In this document: piece by piece, positions 6,188-51,885 of the stretch | Layout: every line of letters starts with the position of its first letter | Numbering within the stretch: the first letter of the stretch is position 1 | IMG/VR virus record: IMGVR_UViG_3300049489_001004 | Location: 1-55,555 of that record | From: a virus | Reading direction: 5' to 3' (one strand) | DNA: 55,555 bases | Notes under the pieces: model-generated | Databases searched by the model: none | Seen by the model: the letters and a program-made list of their open reading frames with translations, nothing else | What the model was told of the DNA's origin: nothing | Position numbers and translations under genes: made by a program

Positions 6188-6320
6188 TGTGCTGAAGTGA
6201 AGTTTAGAGTTACTTCATCTTGAAAATGATCAGAGCGGTTCGATTCCGCAGCGGCTTGCAAAAGCTGTTTAGTGTAACGGGAGCACGAATAATGACTTCG
6301 AGCAACTGGTTCTCAGTACA
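6188..6320 (+). ncRNA. Y RNA-like unit 1 with permuted tRNA module
   Basis: The closing stem TGTGCTGA / TCAGTACA (8 bp) brackets the array's two shared motifs, the 5' GTGAAG...GAGTTACTTC and the 3' TGGTTCTC. Inside is a tRNA module in permuted order: T arm GCGG-TTCGATT-CCGC, then acceptor AGCGGCT / AGCTGTT closed by TGCAAA, then TA and a D-like arm containing AACGG. This is the plan of bacterial YrlA RNAs, which Ro60 binds through the closing stem and which mimic tRNA through the module. Identification rests on sequence and hand-drawn pairing. Confidence 0.8.
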
Positions 6321-6327
6321 TTTTTTT

Positions 6328-6440
6328 ATGTTGATGCGTAGATAAGAGTTACTTCACAGGTTCAATTCCCGTATCTAGTAATGTGAATTGCTAGATGTGC
6401 AATGGCGCACACAAAACTTTAATCGCCTGGTTCTCAACAT
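6328..6440 (+). ncRNA. Y RNA-like unit 2 with permuted tRNA module
   Basis: ATGTTGA pairs with TCAACAT around GATGCGTAG...GAGTTACTTC and CCTGGTTCTC. The module has a T arm with loop TTCAATT. It is followed by an acceptor-like stem ATCTAGT / GCTAGAT with a 10-base closing loop, and then a small D-like hairpin GTGC-AATGGC-GCAC. The linker between acceptor and D arm is missing, so this module is less regular than those of units 1, 3 and 4. Confidence 0.75.
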
Positions 6441-6447
6441 AATTCAT

Positions 6448-6523
6448 AGCAGCGTAGAGGAGTCTGGTTGTCCTCGACGGGCTCATATCCCGTAGATCGC
6501 AAGTTCAAATCTTGTCGCTGCCA
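6448..6523 (+). tRNA. tRNA-fMet(CAT), initiator type
   Basis: The cloverleaf is AGCAGCG, TA, D arm GAGG/CCTC, anticodon stem ACGGG-CTCATAT-CCCGT, variable AGATC, T arm GCAAG/CTTGT, acceptor CGCTGCC. Three features mark an initiator tRNA: an unpaired 1-72 position (A·C), the A11-U24 pair, and three consecutive G-C pairs above the anticodon loop. CCA is not encoded. It lies between Y RNA units 2 and 3, so it is probably cut out of the same transcript. An ORF on the opposite strand here is a shadow. Confidence 0.85.
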
Positions 6524-6526
6524 CGA

Positions 6527-6662
6527 TATACCGAAGTGTAGTTTAGAGTTACTTCTTACTCTTAATAAGTTAGAGCGGTTCGACTCCGCAGTAGATTGAA
6601 AAATTTGCTTAGTGTAACGGCAGCACAAAAATGTAAACTTTGAACGATTGGTTCTCGGTATA
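6527..6662 (+). ncRNA. Y RNA-like unit 3 with permuted tRNA module
   Basis: Perfect 8 bp closing stem TATACCGA / TCGGTATA. The 5' motif is GTGTAGTTTAGAGTTACTTC and the 3' motif GATTGGTTCTC. The module runs T arm GCGG-TTCGACT-CCGC, acceptor AGTAGAT / ATTTGCT closed by TGAAAA, linker TA, and D arm GTGT-AACGGCA-GCAC. It is closest to unit 1, and the stems differ by paired changes. Confidence 0.8.
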
Positions 6663-6671
6663 ATCAATCAA

Positions 6672-6809
6672 TGTGTCGATGTGAAGAATTGAGATACTTC
6701 GAAAACAATGTGTCCAGGTTCGATTCCTGGCTAGGTGTGTAAACATTTAGTAGCTCAACGGCAGAGCAATTGTCCTGCACTACACTTAATTCGATTTGTT
6801 CTCGACACA
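6672..6809 (+). ncRNA. Y RNA-like unit 4 with complete permuted tRNA module
   Basis: The clearest unit. The closing stem is TGTGTCGA / TCGACACA. The module reads ACAAT (6705-6709), variable GTGT, T arm CCAGG-TTCGATT-CCTGG, acceptor CTAGGTG-TGTAAA-CATTTAG (7 bp), TA, D arm GCTC-AACGGCA-GAGC, A, ATTGT (6769-6773). ATTGT and ACAAT close an anticodon-stem equivalent that runs into the Y stem. Every tRNA element is present with normal lengths, but the ends are moved to the anticodon and the acceptor is sealed by a loop. Confidence 0.85.
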
Positions 6810-6816
6810 ATTTTTA

Positions 6817-6915
6817 AGTATTGATGTGAAGAGTAGGGATACTTCGGAAAAACTAGGCACACGTCTAGAGTGGGTTCAAACCCCACAGTTCCTTATTCAA
6901 AATGTTCTCAATACT
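6817..6915 (+). ncRNA. Y RNA-like unit 5 with T-arm only
   Basis: Closing stem AGTATTGA / TCAATACT (8 bp), inner stem GAGTAGGGA / TTCCTTATTC, 5' GATACTTC and 3' ATGTTCTC. It holds one good T arm, GTGGG-TTCAAAC-CCCAC, but no D arm or permuted acceptor. It is a reduced form of the module in units 1-4. Confidence 0.75.
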
Positions 6916-6919
6916 ACTT

Positions 6920-6974
6920 TTACTCTCCTAATCTTTTTCCTATTTCGTCGTCGTGTTGGAGATTAGGAGAGTAA
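6920..6974 (+). ncRNA. Long hairpin between Y RNA unit 5 and the rRNA mimic
   Basis: A perfect 15 bp stem (6920-6934 with 6960-6974), extended by G·T pairs, encloses a T/C-rich loop. There is no T run after it, so it is not a standard terminator. It may be an RNase III-type processing site that separates the RNAs, or a stable spacer. Confidence 0.6.
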
Positions 6975-6978
6975 TTTC

Positions 6979-7154
6979 GTTTTCGTTAAACGGTGGGCTT
7001 AGAAGCAGCCATCCGATAATGAGTGGAGCAGTCCTGAGGGTTGGCTTTGGCTGGCCCGAAGGGGTAGATTAATATCTACTAAGGTAGAGCTATGAGACAC
7101 ACTACCTCATCTCCTTTTTAGGGGCCTTAGGCGTAATAGCACATTAACGAAAAC
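6979..7154 (+). ncRNA. Mimic of the 23S rRNA L11-binding GTPase-associated centre
   Basis: GGCTTAGAAGCAGCCATC (6996-7013) equals E. coli 23S bases 1062-1079, including A1067. GCGTAATAGC (7131-7140) equals 1091-1100, including A1095. Below the first hairpin, pairs 1057-1081 and 1058-1080 become C-G and G-C by compensating change, and the unusual 1060·1078 U·U is kept. An 11 bp stem (6979-6989 / 7144-7154) replaces the rRNA closing helix. The short 1082-1090 linker is replaced by about 115 bases with their own hairpins (GTAGAT/ATCTAC, GGTAG/CTACC, CCC/GGG). In the ribosome this domain binds L11 and contacts GTPase factors, RelA and thiostrepton. What it binds here is inference. Confidence 0.8.
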
Positions 7155-7159
7155 AATCC

Positions 7160-7237
7160 TCTTCCGATGTGAAGATTGGGGTTACTTCATTTTTTGGTAA
7201 TGTAACCGTAAACCTCAATCGATTTGTTCTCGGAAGA
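7160..7237 (+). ncRNA. Y RNA-like unit 6, short form
   Basis: Closing stem TCTTCCGA / TCGGAAGA (8 bp). The inner stem GATTGGGGTT / AACCTCAATC is 10 bp with one wobble. The 5' motif is GATGTGAAG...GGTTACTTC and the 3' motif GATTTGTTCTC. There is only a small apical hairpin and no tRNA module. This minimal form keeps just the presumed Ro60-binding stem. Confidence 0.8.
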
Positions 7238-7242
7238 ACCAT

Positions 7243-7362
7243 GCAGGTGTGCTACCTCGATCGAAGAGGAGGAGCTACGAAGCAGGAAAACGATGTTTAA
7301 GCGTTGTATACGGCGCTTTTTCGATCAGCCTGTGAAGTGTGAGTTCGATCCTCACGGCCTGC
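7243..7362 (+). ncRNA. tRNA-like structured RNA, unassigned
   Basis: GCAGG (7243-7247) pairs with CCTGC (7358-7362). Just inside the 3' side is a perfect T arm GTGAG-TTCGATC-CTCAC (7339-7355). The middle has an 11 bp stem (7259-7269 / 7316-7326) and a hairpin AAGCGTT-GTATAC-GGCGCTT with a self-complementary loop. No normal D arm or 7-base anticodon loop could be placed. It is about 120 bases long, longer than any tRNA. It could be a degenerate or interrupted tRNA gene or another mimic. Confidence 0.5.
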
Positions 7363-7368
7363 GCGAAA

Positions 7369-7448
7369 GGTACTGATGCGATACACAGAGTTACTTCATT
7401 AATTTTCACTTAATCAAAAAAAACTTTGTGTGCTTGGTTCTCAGTGCT
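7369..7448 (+). ncRNA. Y RNA-like unit 7, short form
   Basis: Closing stem GGTACTGA / TCAGTGCT (8 bp with wobbles). The inner stem ACACAGAGTT / AACTTTGTGT is 10 bp. The 5' motif is GATGCGAT...GAGTTACTTC and the 3' motif GCTTGGTTCTC. The apical part is A/T-rich and has no tRNA module. Confidence 0.8.
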
Positions 7449-7456
7449 ACTTTTTA

Positions 7457-7531
7457 ACTTGTGATGCGTAGACTAGAGTTACTTCATAATTGAAATTTAT
7501 AAAAGCCTTTAGTCGCTTGGTTCTCACAAGT
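7457..7531 (+). ncRNA. Y RNA-like unit 8, short form
   Basis: Perfect closing stem ACTTGTGA / TCACAAGT. The inner stem GACTAGAG / CTTTAGTC is 8 bp with one wobble. The 5' motif is GATGCGTAGACTAGAGTTAC and the 3' motif CGCTTGGTTCTC. It is the last and shortest unit, ending 30 bases before the Ro60 start codon, so array and gene may share a transcript. Confidence 0.8.
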
Positions 7532-7561: not shown

Positions 7562-9097
7562 ATGATGGCGCATTTCGCCCAGAACGCACAGCAGGCAAAG
7601 CCTGTTGGCGTCACTCAGACGACTACTGCAGCAGTCACCCACGAAGGTGGCCTAGGTTATAGTCTTGATGCTAAGACAGAGCTTTACACTCTTTCGGTGT
7701 CTTCATTCCATGGTCAGAACTCTTATTATGAGTCTGGCGAAAGTCGAGAAGATCGATTTGCTAAGCTTGTTCAGCAAGTGACGAAGGAAGATCCTGATTG
7801 GGTACGAGCTTTTATTCCTTGGCTGCGAAATGAAGCCAACATTAGAAGCAATTCTATTGCTGCAGCTTGCGAATATGTTGCAGCTGGTGGTCCTAACGGT
7901 AGAGCTGTTATTGACAGTTGTATCGTTCGAGCCGATGAACCCGCTGAGATTTTTGGCTATTGGGTGTCTCGTTATGGCCGTAAGTTTCCTGCCCCAGTCA
8001 AGAGAGGCCTCGCAGACGCCGCTCAGAGGCTGTATAACGAGCGCAATGCCCTAAAGTGGGACCAGAATGGCTCGAACGTACGTATGGGCGATATTATCGC
8101 TATGACGCACCCTAAGCCTGTTGGGAACTGGCAGGGCGATCTTTTCACTTATCTGATGGATGTTCGCCACCGCCGTGATAATCCTCGTGGGTTGGAATCT
8201 CTTCCTCTGATTACCAATGTTCTCAATTGGCGTCAGGCTGCTCTTAAGGGAGAGATCAACTATGAACTTCCTGAAGGCGTAACTTGGGAAGCATTATCTT
8301 CTCTCACTAAGATGGATAAGGCTGCCTGGGAAGCCGTTATTCCTCAGATGGGATACATGGCTTTAATTCGCAATCTTCGGAATTTCGAAGAAGCGGGTAT
8401 CAGTAAGTCGATGGTTGACTTTGTCAATGCCAAGATTGCTGACCCAGAAGAAGTTGCGAAGTCACGTCAGCTTCCCATGCGCTTTTGGTCTTCTTACGCT
8501 AACAGCGGAAGTCTCAAGTATGCTCAAGCCCTTGAAGAGGCAATGAATCTTTCTCTGAATAGCATTCCTCATTTCAATGGTAGAACTCTTGTAATGGTAG
8601 ATACTTCAGGCTCAATGATGGGTAGCTATTCTAACAAGGGCACCGTTAGTCCTGTTCAGCAGGCAGCGATCTTTGGTTCTGCTGTTGCCGCGGCTTCTGA
8701 CAACAGCACTGTTGCTATTTATGCTTCAAGTGTTGCTGTTGTTCAGCCTTCGACTTCGGTTCTTCGTACAACAGATACCATTATCAAGTCGGTAGGTAGT
8801 GTGGGCCACGGCACCAATACCTGGCCATCGGTATTACAGATGTGGAATGAGCACGGACCATTCGATCGCGTATTAGTGTTTACTGACATGCAGGATCACC
8901 CCTCAGCTGTCAGCCATAAAAACATTCCGAAGAACGTTCCTATTTACGTTTGGGACTTGGCAGGACATAAGACTGCTAATATCGAGCTCGGCTCCGGCCG
9001 GTATCTATTTGGTGGATTAAGCGACCAAAGCTTCAAGAGCCTTAAGCTTGTCGAGGACTATCAGCCTGGAGTTTGGCCTTGGGCTATTTCGGCCTGA
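7562..9097 (+). CDS. rsr: Ro60 / Rsr ortholog, TROVE-domain protein (511 aa)
   Basis: Full-length TROVE protein: HEAT-like repeats over about residues 15-320 with the typical EDPDWVRAFIPWLRNEANIRS start. A C-terminal VWA-like domain has a MIDAS motif VDTSGSMMG (about 347-355) and a later TDMQD. The family forms a ring that binds Y RNAs on its outer face and the 3' ends of misfolded RNAs in its hole. Eight Y RNA-like units directly upstream confirm the assignment. Codon use here is richer in G/C than in neighbouring small genes, which suggests high expression. The start is ATG 7562 (a second ATG follows at 7565) after AGAGAAAAGAGAAA. Confidence 0.95.
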   Translation: MMAHFAQNAQQAKPVGVTQTTTAAVTHEGGLGYSLDAKTELYTLSVSSFHGQNSYYESGESREDRFAKLVQQVTKEDPDWVRAFIPWLRNEANIRSNSIAAACEYVAAGGPNGRAVIDSCIVRADEPAEIFGYWVSRYGRKFPAPVKRGLADAAQRLYNERNALKWDQNGSNVRMGDIIAMTHPKPVGNWQGDLFTYLMDVRHRRDNPRGLESLPLITNVLNWRQAALKGEINYELPEGVTWEALSSLTKMDKAAWEAVIPQMGYMALIRNLRNFEEAGISKSMVDFVNAKIADPEEVAKSRQLPMRFWSSYANSGSLKYAQALEEAMNLSLNSIPHFNGRTLVMVDTSGSMMGSYSNKGTVSPVQQAAIFGSAVAAASDNSTVAIYASSVAVVQPSTSVLRTTDTIIKSVGSVGHGTNTWPSVLQMWNEHGPFDRVLVFTDMQDHPSAVSHKNIPKNVPIYVWDLAGHKTANIELGSGRYLFGGLSDQSFKSLKLVEDYQPGVWPWAISA

Positions 9098-48474: not shown

Positions 48475-51400
48475 TTATCTAATCGGGCAGGCACCTGTCG
48501 AACAGTTTTCGTCTAACGACGACCCATGCTCTTCAACCGTACCGTGATAATCATGATACTCTTTTGCCGTGATAGCCTCAATGGGTGACTGTGGCCGAGT
48601 CATCACGGGGAAAATAGTCATTCCTTTTACGTGCGGGAGTCTGCCCATAATAACTTCGTACACATGCTCAAAATCAGTTAACTCTTCAGGCTGAATATTA
48701 GCGGTGAAAGAAACTGCGTTGCCATCATTGCCATTCGTAAAGTGATGCGTCACAAACTGCAGCACCGCAAGCTGCTCATCAAGAGTAACTTCATGAGACT
48801 CCTGAATTAAGCTTTCGTCATAAGAGTCAAGGATTTGATCTCTAACGATATTTTCTACTACTGTGGTATTCTGACTATAGATACAAGGTTCGGTATGGCG
48901 ACCTTCCTCGATCGCCTTATCGATGAGCTTGTCACCGTTTGTAAAACGTACTCTGCGCTTAAAGTATTTCGCCAGGACAGGATGAATTCCGGCTTGAACC
49001 CCAGGAAGGATAGAGATTGTACCGTTCGGAGCTATCGCCGTAACTTTGATTGGTCTAGGAATGCCTAGCTCATCTGCATACCTGTCTGCTGCGAGTCGAA
49101 CCGTGCGACGGAAAGACTCAAGTTTCTCAGCCAAAATTTCCGAATGGGGAATCTCAGAATACTTAACTCCATGAGCAGCTGCCCATTCCTGGAACCCAAA
49201 GAATCCAACTCCAATACGACGGTTTTTAGCCTCTACCATAGCCGTTAGGTTATGATCTGGGACCGTAAGAGTGGCGCGAACCAAATACCGAGCCATGAGT
49301 TCAAAAGCTTCTTTCGCTCCGTCGTCATCGGTACCAAAGGCAGCGAGATTTACTGAGCCAATATTGCAACTTTCGCCCTCTTGCAAGTTAATCTCACCAC
49401 ATTGTAGCGCATTTATTCCAGAGTATCGGTTCCCTACTAGTTTTCCAACGCACAAAGTATGGTTTTCGTCAACAGTTAAGTTGTATACGGTATGCTCGCC
49501 GTCTAGCTCTTCGATCCTTATGACCTTGTGGTTGTGATTATCACCAGCTTCCTGCACAGCTTTCCAGTTTGGGAATGCATTCGGGCTCTTAGGATTTAAT
49601 CTATAGCTAATTTTTTGAGTCCTACAGGCATCTATCCACTCTGGTTTTTGTGGGTCGCGGCCAAGATTATGCTTAAGGTCACAATAGACTTTTGTTTGAG
49701 CAAGTTTTGTCTCGGCCATCTTGTCAGACCAATACTTTGCCGCTGTAGCTTTGCGCTTAGGATCGTTCTCTAAATGCTTATTGCCACATGCCACAGAGCA
49801 GAAAGCTTGTTCCCTCTGCTGATAGTTAACCAAGAAATCATGCTGGCAAGTTTCACATACACGATTTACATAAACGGTCTTATCGACTAGCTGGGCTTCA
49901 TAACCCTGCTGCTCAGCAATTTGTAACAAACGTAAGGTTCGAGTGTCAATACTGTGAGTAATGAAGCCTAGTTTTTCTGCGGCCCAATGTGACAGTTCAA
50001 CAACTGACCCCAGTTCAGAGCGATGAGCGCTGAACGACCTAGGCATATTGGACACATTAGTATCGTTGACCCATTCTTTGTGAGAGAAACGACGACCCAG
50101 TTCTTTAGTTAGTTCGATGGCACGGTTACGAATATCATCATCTGCAAAACCACTGTAACGTGGATTCTTTTCTCCGGATACATCAGCGAGTTGCGCATGT
50201 AGAAGCTGATGCTCACGCCAGGTCATCACGGCAAGATTATCTGGTGAATTATTTAAACCATTAAAATCTTTGTGATGAACGACAATACCGCCAGTGTTCG
50301 CACAACCGCCACACTCTTCGGTTCTAATTTTTGCAGATTCCCAACCATTGGAATCATTAAACTTAGAAATAAGCCGGTGCTCCATTATCTTTCCCTCTTT
50401 TTCCGTGAGGGCATTGGTGTATACTCTCCAATATGGTTGACCATCGGAAGAAAACTTTTCCTGCCGCTTAGTAAACGGCATGAGAGACTGACCGATCTGT
50501 AGATCTTTTGCCTCAACAATTTGACCGTCACGAGTCATCATCTTGTGGTTGGGGGTGACATCTACATAAAAATCTTTGTCTGTGTGAATGCGGAGAAGCT
50601 TTTGGTTATATCCGGTGACGCGAGGGTTACGGCCCATCTTAATAGACACATTCCCAAACTCGTCGGTTGAATAAACCGGGACATCTAGGCCTTCCTTAGC
50701 AAGCTGTTCTAAAGATACTGCGTCACGACCGTCTGCCGTCATAACTAACGTATCTCCAGAGAAGCATGGGTTGGTGCTACGAGTGTCTGAGTGCTCACCA
50801 AATGACGCATAAGAAGAGTTATAGAAGCCTGGCTCGCCATTGTGCACCATCCCGGTTACTACGGCTCTAGCGACAGCTAAAGCGCCCTCTTCATGGCGAG
50901 TTAATGCCTCGAAGAATGAGTCATCAACTTCTACTGAAATATTAGTTGACCAATGCAGCATTGGATTTTCCTTGCAATGAATAAAGTCAAAGATGTGAGG
51001 ATCATCCCAGTGAACAATAGACATCCGTGCACTGCGCCTGGCCCCACCAGCAACGATGGCTTCGGCCAAATAGTGATCGCACTCCATGGCTTCTACTGAA
51101 CTAAGATGTCGTCCAGTAGCCCTCTTTAATACTTCGTGAACTTTAACGAGTGATCCAGCCAATGGATCCGGGCCAGAGGCGGTTCCGCCGAAGGTTTTGA
51201 TTACCTCTCCCCTTGAACGAATCTCGGTGAGATCAAAGTACAGATCAAGCTTTGAGTTAATCCCGGTGGCATGATCGAATAAAAGCCCCCAAGACTCGAC
51301 CCATCCCTCGCGATCATCAGAGATACGATTTAAAGCCACTGCACCATGATTGTAATATAAATCATTGACTCGATCCAGGAAATCTTCAGGCTCTAACCAT

Positions 51401-51885
51401 GACTCACCGGATTGAAGTTTTACGTCATTGTAATCGCGATGAGAACGATCAATGGTAATGTAAATGTTACCCATTTCTCTTATCGGATCAGAAAGAGTTA
51501 AGTATTCCTGAGAATAGTTTGCTCCGACACCACCACCGGTCATAAGCTGTGAGCCCATGAATTCAAAATGATCTGCTAAACGAGAAGTAAATGGTGCCCT
51601 AAAACAATTCCTTACATATGGCAAGCCGGTTCCGGTCACCCATAGATGTCGACCAGCGGGGATCATCTCAAAGGAATAAATAAGTTCAGCGACTCTTTTA
51701 CGTTCGTCCGGATCTGATATGGTAGAAGTAACCCTATCAACTGTTTCGGCCCAAGTTTCTTTTTCTCCGTTAGCTTTAATTCTACTATAGGTTCGTTCGT
51801 AAACGACCTCTCCCATTGGCCCCCAAACAGGCTTTTCTAGCGTGTCTAGATGTGTCACAACTGAATTTTGGGTAAAAGATTCCAT
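48475..51885 (-). CDS. nrdJ: Class II ribonucleoside reductase with intein (1136 aa)
   Basis: The extein parts add to 681 aa. VRNCFRAPF (Cys94), MTGGGVGANYS and TNP|CGEI, then ESCNIGSVNL, are typical of B12-dependent monomeric RNRs, and the C-terminus ENCSTGACPIR has the redox Cys pair. A 455-residue intein occupies residues 374-828 (50766-49402) between TNP and CGEI. Supplies dNTPs together with the dNMP kinase-like enzyme, ThyX and MazG. The small and large minus-strand neighbours are unrelated. Confidence 0.92.
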   Translation of the reverse strand: MESFTQNSVVTHLDTLEKPVWGPMGEVVYERTYSRIKANGEKETWAETVDRVTSTISDPDERKRVAELIYSFEMIPAGRHLWVTGTGLPYVRNCFRAPFTSRLADHFEFMGSQLMTGGGVGANYSQEYLTLSDPIREMGNIYITIDRSHRDYNDVKLQSGESWLEPEDFLDRVNDLYYNHGAVALNRISDDREGWVESWGLLFDHATGINSKLDLYFDLTEIRSRGEVIKTFGGTASGPDPLAGSLVKVHEVLKRATGRHLSSVEAMECDHYLAEAIVAGGARRSARMSIVHWDDPHIFDFIHCKENPMLHWSTNISVEVDDSFFEALTRHEEGALAVARAVVTGMVHNGEPGFYNSSYASFGEHSDTRSTNPCFSGDTLVMTADGRDAVSLEQLAKEGLDVPVYSTDEFGNVSIKMGRNPRVTGYNQKLLRIHTDKDFYVDVTPNHKMMTRDGQIVEAKDLQIGQSLMPFTKRQEKFSSDGQPYWRVYTNALTEKEGKIMEHRLISKFNDSNGWESAKIRTEECGGCANTGGIVVHHKDFNGLNNSPDNLAVMTWREHQLLHAQLADVSGEKNPRYSGFADDDIRNRAIELTKELGRRFSHKEWVNDTNVSNMPRSFSAHRSELGSVVELSHWAAEKLGFITHSIDTRTLRLLQIAEQQGYEAQLVDKTVYVNRVCETCQHDFLVNYQQREQAFCSVACGNKHLENDPKRKATAAKYWSDKMAETKLAQTKVYCDLKHNLGRDPQKPEWIDACRTQKISYRLNPKSPNAFPNWKAVQEAGDNHNHKVIRIEELDGEHTVYNLTVDENHTLCVGKLVGNRYSGINALQCGEINLQEGESCNIGSVNLAAFGTDDDGAKEAFELMARYLVRATLTVPDHNLTAMVEAKNRRIGVGFFGFQEWAAAHGVKYSEIPHSEILAEKLESFRRTVRLAADRYADELGIPRPIKVTAIAPNGTISILPGVQAGIHPVLAKYFKRRVRFTNGDKLIDKAIEEGRHTEPCIYSQNTTVVENIVRDQILDSYDESLIQESHEVTLDEQLAVLQFVTHHFTNGNDGNAVSFTANIQPEELTDFEHVYEVIMGRLPHVKGMTIFPVMTRPQSPIEAITAKEYHDYHGTVEEHGSSLDENCSTGACPIR
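49402..50766 (-). other. Intein with HNH homing domain inside the RNR
   Basis: Begins CFSGDTLVMTADGRDAVSLE (Cys nucleophile). Block B is DVTPNHKMMTRDGQIV (T-x-x-H). The middle contains an HNH nuclease: CGGCANTGGIVVHHKDFNGL, then NNSPDNLAVMTWREHQLLH. Block F is VYNLTVDENHTLCVG. The last residue before the +1 Cys of the extein is Gln (GINALQ|C), not the usual Asn. Removal gives the standard TNPCGEI. Confidence 0.85.

Follow-up and report, generated by a model that had tools for sequence, protein, structure and literature searches.

The window, that is, the whole stretch of 55,555 nucleotides (nt) analyzed here (positions 1–55,555 of the IMG/VR record IMGVR_UViG_3300049489_001004), encodes at positions 6979–7154 an RNA that copies the GTPase-associated centre (GAC) of 23S ribosomal RNA (rRNA). 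Covariation among its relatives and the retention of bases for tertiary contacts support that the core of this GAC RNA folds like the 58-nt GAC of 23S rRNA. It belongs to a widespread and so far undescribed class of noncoding RNAs that are carried by many unrelated phages. These RNAs may bind the host ribosomal protein uL11 (L11).

The copy of the GTPase-associated centre in the window

The numbering of positions in 23S rRNA was checked against the Salmonella 23S gene NG_042030. Two blocks of the window can be read directly against this gene. The sequence GGCTTAGAAGCAGCCATC at 6996–7013 is identical to 23S 1062–1079, and GCGTAATAGC at 7131–7140 is identical to 23S 1091–1100, just as a preliminary description of this DNA had claimed. 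A chance match is negligible, with about 1.6e-6 for the 18-nt block alone. The distance from nucleotide 1079 to nucleotide 1091 is 117 nt in the window, versus 11 nt in rRNA.

All parts of the element are on the plus strand. The mimic of helix H43 (23S 1056–1081) is the hairpin GGCUUAGAAGCAGCC at 6990–7015, in which A1067 is at 7001. Three pairs of its lower part are compensated in comparison with Escherichia coli: C6991-G7015 (1057–1081), G6992-C7014 (1058–1080), and G6993-C7013 (1059–1079). Above them, the noncanonical pair 1060·1078 is kept as U6994·U7012. The mimic of H44 (1091–1102) is GCGUAAUAGC at 7131–7142, with A1095 at 7135, followed by A1101 and C1102 (7142). The place of H42 is taken by a closing stem of non-rRNA sequence, whose 5′ strand at 6979–6989 (1045–1055) pairs at 11 of 11 positions with its 3′ strand at 7144–7154 (1104–1114). 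The compensated pairs, the kept U·U, and the new 11-bp stem had all been described before, and they hold.

The same description had about 115 bases replacing the rRNA linker. There is indeed a long insertion, but the junction corresponding to 23S 1082–1090 is retained at 7016–7024 as AUAAUGAGU, of which UAAUGAGU represents 1083–1090. It holds A1084, A1085, G1087 (7021), and A1088 (7022). The real insertion is a variable arm of 106 nt at 7025–7130, between nucleotides 1090 and 1091, and it contains several hairpins. The extent of the copy was thus understated, as nearly all of the L11-binding GAC is retained. Beyond the two blocks, G1059, U1060, A1084, A1085, G1087, A1088, and C1102 are also present. 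All of the bases for tertiary contacts (U1060, G1071, C1072, A1088, G1087-C1102, G1091-C1100, and C1092-G1099) are found in the window. A1088 is the tertiary partner of U1060.

Folding and covariation

In the window, thermodynamics alone gives a pair probability above 0.95 for 10 of the 11 pairs of the closing stem. It is about 0.4–0.6 for H43 and H44, and 0.005 for the single pair 1087–1102. In the member at locus L033, which is nearly free of an insert, H42, H43, and H44 constitute the minimum free energy (MFE) fold, with z = −3.2.

The fold is also supported by the alignment of 36 members. Cells are paired in 92.0%, versus 67.2 ± 1.0% after shuffling, and covariation is 0.627, versus 0.150 ± 0.013. 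As a control, the 3′ partners were slid by 1–3 columns, and the covariation fell to 0.116–0.193. The closing stem is paired in 86.4% of cells, and changes on both sides are seen in all 10 pairs counted. Pairs 1057–1081 and 1058–1080 of lower H43 covary, and the helix pair C1064-G1074 has become A-U by a double change in four of the members found from the 3′ block alone. Of the noncanonical pairs, 1056·1103 is mostly G·A or A·A, and 1060·1078 is mostly U·U or U·C. The basal helix of the arm also covaries (four pairs, 88.9% of cells paired), although it is not clear in the copy of the window itself. The homologs therefore keep the pairing and not just the sequence. When a covariance model is built from other phages, with the window excluded, it recovers the window at 35.9 bits (E = 2.8e-8).

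Distribution of GAC RNAs

The family was searched for in IMG/VR contigs, in sequenced phages, and in 84,980 bacterial and archaeal genomes. The exact two-block pattern with non-rRNA spacing is seen in 20 further IMG/VR contigs, and the 5′ block alone and the 3′ block alone are each seen in at least 120. The GAC RNA itself is present in more than 100 IMG/VR contigs. The first family search required the exact 5′ block, and it was repeated starting only from the 3′ block (hereafter, the unbiased set). Among the matches listed in the latter, a 5′ block lies upstream at 93 non-redundant places. It is missing at only 4, which are mostly at contig ends. Among the matches listed for the 5′ block, those in which the 3′ block was placed have the two blocks 57–380 nt apart, which is not the distance in rRNA. 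Only L033 comes near the rRNA spacing, and its flanks are not rRNA. In the bacterial and archaeal genomes, a similar pattern is found in only two contigs, one of which contains phage portal and head genes.

Among sequenced phages, the carriers of a GAC RNA number at least 16. They include Cronobacter phage GAP32, Pectobacterium phage CBB, Aeromonas phage 4_4572, Xanthomonas phage XacN1, jumbo phages of Erwinia and Serratia, and the Pseudomonas phages pf16, UNO-G1W1, Astolliot, and Milchi. Many of the hosts are Gram-negative. For the Xanthomonas jumbo phage XbC2 and several Erwinia isolates, the GAC RNA is known from BLAST matches only. The family model matches 11 of 11 phage genomes tested. 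The RNA lies in unannotated gaps or underlies small predicted open reading frames (ORFs), and it is not annotated in any of the 11 sequenced phages inspected.

Paenibacillus phage Pd_22F (L137, MZ092003, about 83.9 kb) was first counted as a carrier and then dropped. Its record contains a genuine stretch of 23S rRNA, which is probably host contamination or a misassembly.

Conserved and variable positions

In the unbiased set, U1060, G1063, U1066, G1071, and C1072 are invariant (87 of 87 members), and A1069 and A1073 are nearly so. In the 36 aligned members, U1083, A1084, A1085, G1087, and A1088 are invariant, and UAAUGAG recurs as a variant of the junction. A1067, the nucleotide contacted by thiostrepton and EF-G, is A in 69 of the 87 members of the unbiased set and G, C, or U in the other 18. 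A1070 is A in 71 and replaced in 16. A1095 is A in 82 of 88 members. The extended H42 stem, which in rRNA is bound by L10, is free to vary in sequence across the family: 84 different closing stems are seen among 88 members. Selection thus keeps the segment that corresponds to the L11-binding 58-mer, together with its tertiary contacts, whereas the bases touched by EF-G and thiostrepton are less constrained.

The arm is highly variable. Its length is 28–369 nt in the listed relatives, and some members have a second hairpin at 1077/1078. In jumbo phages the core is kept at a syntenic position while the arm changes. The inserts show no general match to 23S rRNA, and the idea of a second rRNA mimic in the arms was rejected. 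Recurring modules are observed in the arms of many members (e.g., L140, L016, and L063): GGCACCCCGGAAACGGUAAGGCUGA, GUGCGAAAUGC...GUGAUGUGC, and CAGGGGAARRACAAG...UACAGUUU. Inside the inserts of L211, L053, L079, L070, and L177, a hairpin is seen that is similar to the sarcin-ricin loop (AGUAC-NNNN-GGA) and whose local stem varies. Its loop is not conserved, and UAGUAC could alternatively pair with an upstream GUACUA.

Genomic context

GAC RNAs are often neighbors of transfer RNA (tRNA) genes. Of the 97 members, 65 have a tRNA within 500 nt, compared with 39% when positions on these loci are drawn at random. When a tRNA is within 1 kb, it is always on the same strand as the GAC RNA (67 of 67 members). 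The GAC RNA is located between tRNA-Trp and tRNA-Arg in UNO-G1W1, and between tRNA-Asn and tRNA-Pro in pf16. Its position is conserved across the jumbo phages GAP32, CBB, BF, SNUABM_12, and Kaldavass. No ribosomal-protein gene lies downstream in cis. The neighbors are tRNAs, hypothetical genes, or TROVE genes.

In the window, a tRNA-Met gene (6448–6524) is an upstream member of the array on the same strand. A perfect 15-bp hairpin with a 25-nt loop (6920–6974, plus strand) is just 5′ of the GAC RNA, and it may serve in processing or termination. Eight units resembling Y RNAs are aligned in tandem on the plus strand (6190–7530), some before and some after the GAC RNA, upstream of a phage Ro gene. 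They have the form 5′ N5-GAGUUACUUC ... N5′-GNUUGGUUCUC. In the six units compared, the N5 helices differ and yet stay complementary. At least one unit has a permuted tRNA module like that of YrlA, with the T arm before the D arm. The sequence 6687–6794 matches the Rfam YrlA model at 27.2 bits (E = 0.0023), under the gathering score of 69. The sequence at 7243–7360 is tRNA-like, has a T arm and a long additional region, and is called by neither ARAGORN nor Rfam.

The Ro gene itself is a TROVE (Ro60/Rsr-like) gene at 7562–9097 on the plus strand (PF05731, 8.3e-18). It is a neighbor of the GAC RNA, and the RNA family is independent of it. Relatives of its protein are annotated as Ro-like in phages of Streptomyces, Arthrobacter, and Gordonia. 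A search for related loci with this protein as the query gave none. Weak YrlA matches are present near Ro-like genes of actinophages (L022, 2439–2553, and L023, 5004–5062).

Two other associations were rejected. The protein GAP32_395 adjoins the GAC RNA upstream in GAP32 and its jumbo relatives. It is absent from the other GAC RNA loci, and phage vB_PseuGesM_254 has it with no GAC RNA next to it; it is not considered a partner. Nor is a link to stop-codon suppression retained, as only 8 suppressor-like tRNA(cta) genes are found in the loci scanned. In the window, ARAGORN calls a tRNA-Pyl with anticodon CTA at 14886–14962, where there is no Rfam match; this is possibly an amber-suppressor-like tRNA. 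Elsewhere in the window (48475–51885), an ORF of 1136 aa for ribonucleotide reductase is split by a region of HNH endonuclease type, which is probably an intein.

Possible functions

The 58-nt GAC is the unit of rRNA that L11 binds. Our tentative choice is that the GAC-fold RNA binds host uL11 in trans, either as a sponge or as an anchor. L11 is favored as the target because the fold-critical bases are near-invariant, whereas about 20% of members have lost A1067 and the H42 stem varies freely. No L11 gene is found in the 11 carrier phages tested, so the partner would be the L11 of the host. Among the roles listed in the preliminary description, that of an L11-binding RNA appears the most likely.

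Such an RNA could act as follows. From their position and strand, GAC RNAs would mostly be expressed within phage tRNA arrays and processed together with the tRNAs. The GAC fold would then bind host L11. In one option, free or newly made L11 would be captured and some ribosomes would be left without it. The loss of L11 causes the relaxed (relC) phenotype. Such ribosomes might show blunted RelA-dependent (p)ppGpp synthesis and altered termination. In the other option, the bound L11 would serve as an anchor through which the variable arm reaches a partner. The arm would be the part tuned to each host.

Several points weigh against binding to L11. L11 is as abundant as ribosomes, and a sponge would therefore need very high levels of RNA. 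The complete GAC is not the MFE structure of the window copy in RNAfold, and the full core costs 4.3 kcal/mol above the MFE when forced; folding energies of this kind leave out tertiary contacts. Diversity among the inserts is high, and the members share no single arm that would explain the function. The fold could serve another partner or be a scaffold only. The invariant bases are also the ones that folding alone requires, and for this reason the preference for L11 is one that we infer from base conservation.

The alternative that survives best, though we consider it rather unlikely, is that the GAC fold is reused as a compact tertiary junction that holds variable arms, without any role of L11. 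The arms are large and diverse, and what is invariant is the set of bases that makes the fold. One GAC RNA locus (L007) is shared with ROOL, and ROOL and GOLLD are other ornate RNAs of phage tRNA arrays. However, a scaffold would not require most of the rRNA surface, and yet 79% of members keep A1067 and 93% keep A1095. L033, being nearly insert-free, has little to hold.

It is unlikely, too, that the RNA is a decoy for a reader of the surface of A1067 and A1095, such as translational GTPases, RelA, a methyltransferase, an rRNA-targeting toxin, or thiopeptide antibiotics. Most members retain both nucleotides, and the sarcin-ricin-like hairpin of five long members would suit a decoy of the GTPase centre. 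That hairpin is rare, however, and its tetraloop is not conserved. The replacements of A1067 and A1070 would weaken the binding of thiostrepton-like ligands, and thiopeptides hardly act on Gram-negative hosts. The earlier proposal of thiostrepton binding is accordingly disfavored by the state of A1067 and by the host range, and its link to the antibiotics of actinobacteria finds no support. Decoys for an L11 methylase, RelA, or translational GTPases, which were also among the earlier proposals, keep some probability.

Membership in a phage Ro (TROVE) ribonucleoprotein, with a Y RNA whose tRNA-like module became a GAC mimic, is very improbable. The idea comes from the eight Y-RNA-like units just upstream of the TROVE gene among which the window RNA sits, and from GGCTGGCCCGAAGG in its insert, which resembles metazoan Y RNA. 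It is largely refuted by distribution and was rejected. Besides the window, a weak TROVE match is found at only one locus (L052) among the GAC RNA loci then collected, and the Ro-carrying actinophages Alone3, Atuin, and Rabbitrun have no GAC RNA. Moreover, the GAC RNA is closed by a stem of its own, and it lacks a Ro-binding stem or any other element of the Y type.

The view of the RNA as a piece of 23S rRNA that was captured or has decayed, or as an intron-bearing rRNA gene, can be dismissed despite the high identity over the two blocks and the true rRNA in the Pd_22F record, which makes contamination possible in principle, because every member is closed by a different, covarying stem, covariation is also seen at the base of the insert, the flanks are stems, tRNAs, or Y-like RNAs and not rRNA, and the position is conserved between jumbo phages. 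Covariation, distribution, and unrelated closing stems strongly support the original view of a shaped mimic.

Comparison with known RNAs

The GAC RNA resembles the GAC 58-mer of 23S rRNA (H42-H43-H44, 1051–1108) in its secondary structure, in the bases for tertiary contacts, in the noncanonical pairs 1056·1103 and 1060·1078, and, in most phage members, in A1067 and A1095. It differs in being a separate gene with an unrelated closing stem and a variable arm at 1090/1091. Moreover, phage RNAs mostly have A1101 instead of U1101, A1067 is not invariant, and some have the hairpin at 1077/1078.

The leaders of ribosomal protein operons (uL1, S15, S8, L20, and L10) are likewise non-rRNA RNAs that copy the binding site of a ribosomal protein. 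However, these leaders act in cis before a ribosomal protein gene, whereas the GAC RNA is phage-encoded and free-standing, often among tRNAs. A trans-acting viral copy of the L11 site is not known to us. The mimicry by uL1 leaders has been reviewed (PMC10931766).

ROOL and GOLLD are structured noncoding RNAs of phages and prophages near tRNA islands, and their function is unknown (PMC12286853). The GAC RNA shares with them the phage origin and the proximity to tRNA islands. Unlike them, it is much smaller and copies a known rRNA domain. The manA RNA (RF01745) is also a phage RNA, but its consensus and structure are different. It has been described mainly from marine samples and cyanophages (PMC2864571). 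A copy of manA in Streptomyces phage Alone3 (L022, 4970–5202; 47.8 bits, just below the gathering score), between two tRNA-Lys genes, falls outside that range. YrlA and other bacterial Y RNAs (RF02553) are noncoding RNAs that imitate a part of the translation apparatus, tRNA, and the neighbors of the GAC RNA in the window resemble YrlA. The GAC RNA itself does not, and its family is independent of Ro.

The Rfam models of ROOL, GOLLD, manA, and YrlA show no match over the GAC RNA of the window (E up to 10) or over its relatives. As expected for a copy of the GAC, L140, L142, and L169 match LSU_rRNA weakly and over a part only. These are the only related Rfam matches, and no Rfam family covers the GAC RNA. 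The genome papers of CBB and pf16 mention only tRNAs. No description of the GAC RNA was found in the literature covered, in which preprints and most subscription journals are not included, so that this absence is not proof. With the caution that its function is a proposal, the class of GAC RNAs can be regarded as new; it was already known that ribosomal protein leaders mimic rRNA and that phage tRNA islands contain ornate RNAs.

Implications

GAC RNAs would be a new RNA class, spread over jumbo phages and phages of medium size that infect many hosts. It escaped notice because tRNAs and ORFs are all that annotation pipelines detect. It can be speculated, with more doubt than attaches to the binding of L11 as such, that this viral RNA class hijacks uL11 by a copied rRNA site, through removal or docking. 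This might switch off the stringent response of the host or alter factor-dependent translation, and the variable arm would be a fast-evolving effector. The class also offers a natural collection of 58-mer variants for work on RNA folding. It connects phage infection directly, and in a testable way, with L11 or the GTPase centre, and since cultivated carriers are at hand (GAP32, CBB, pf16, UNO-G1W1, 4_4572, and BF), the function can be tested at once.
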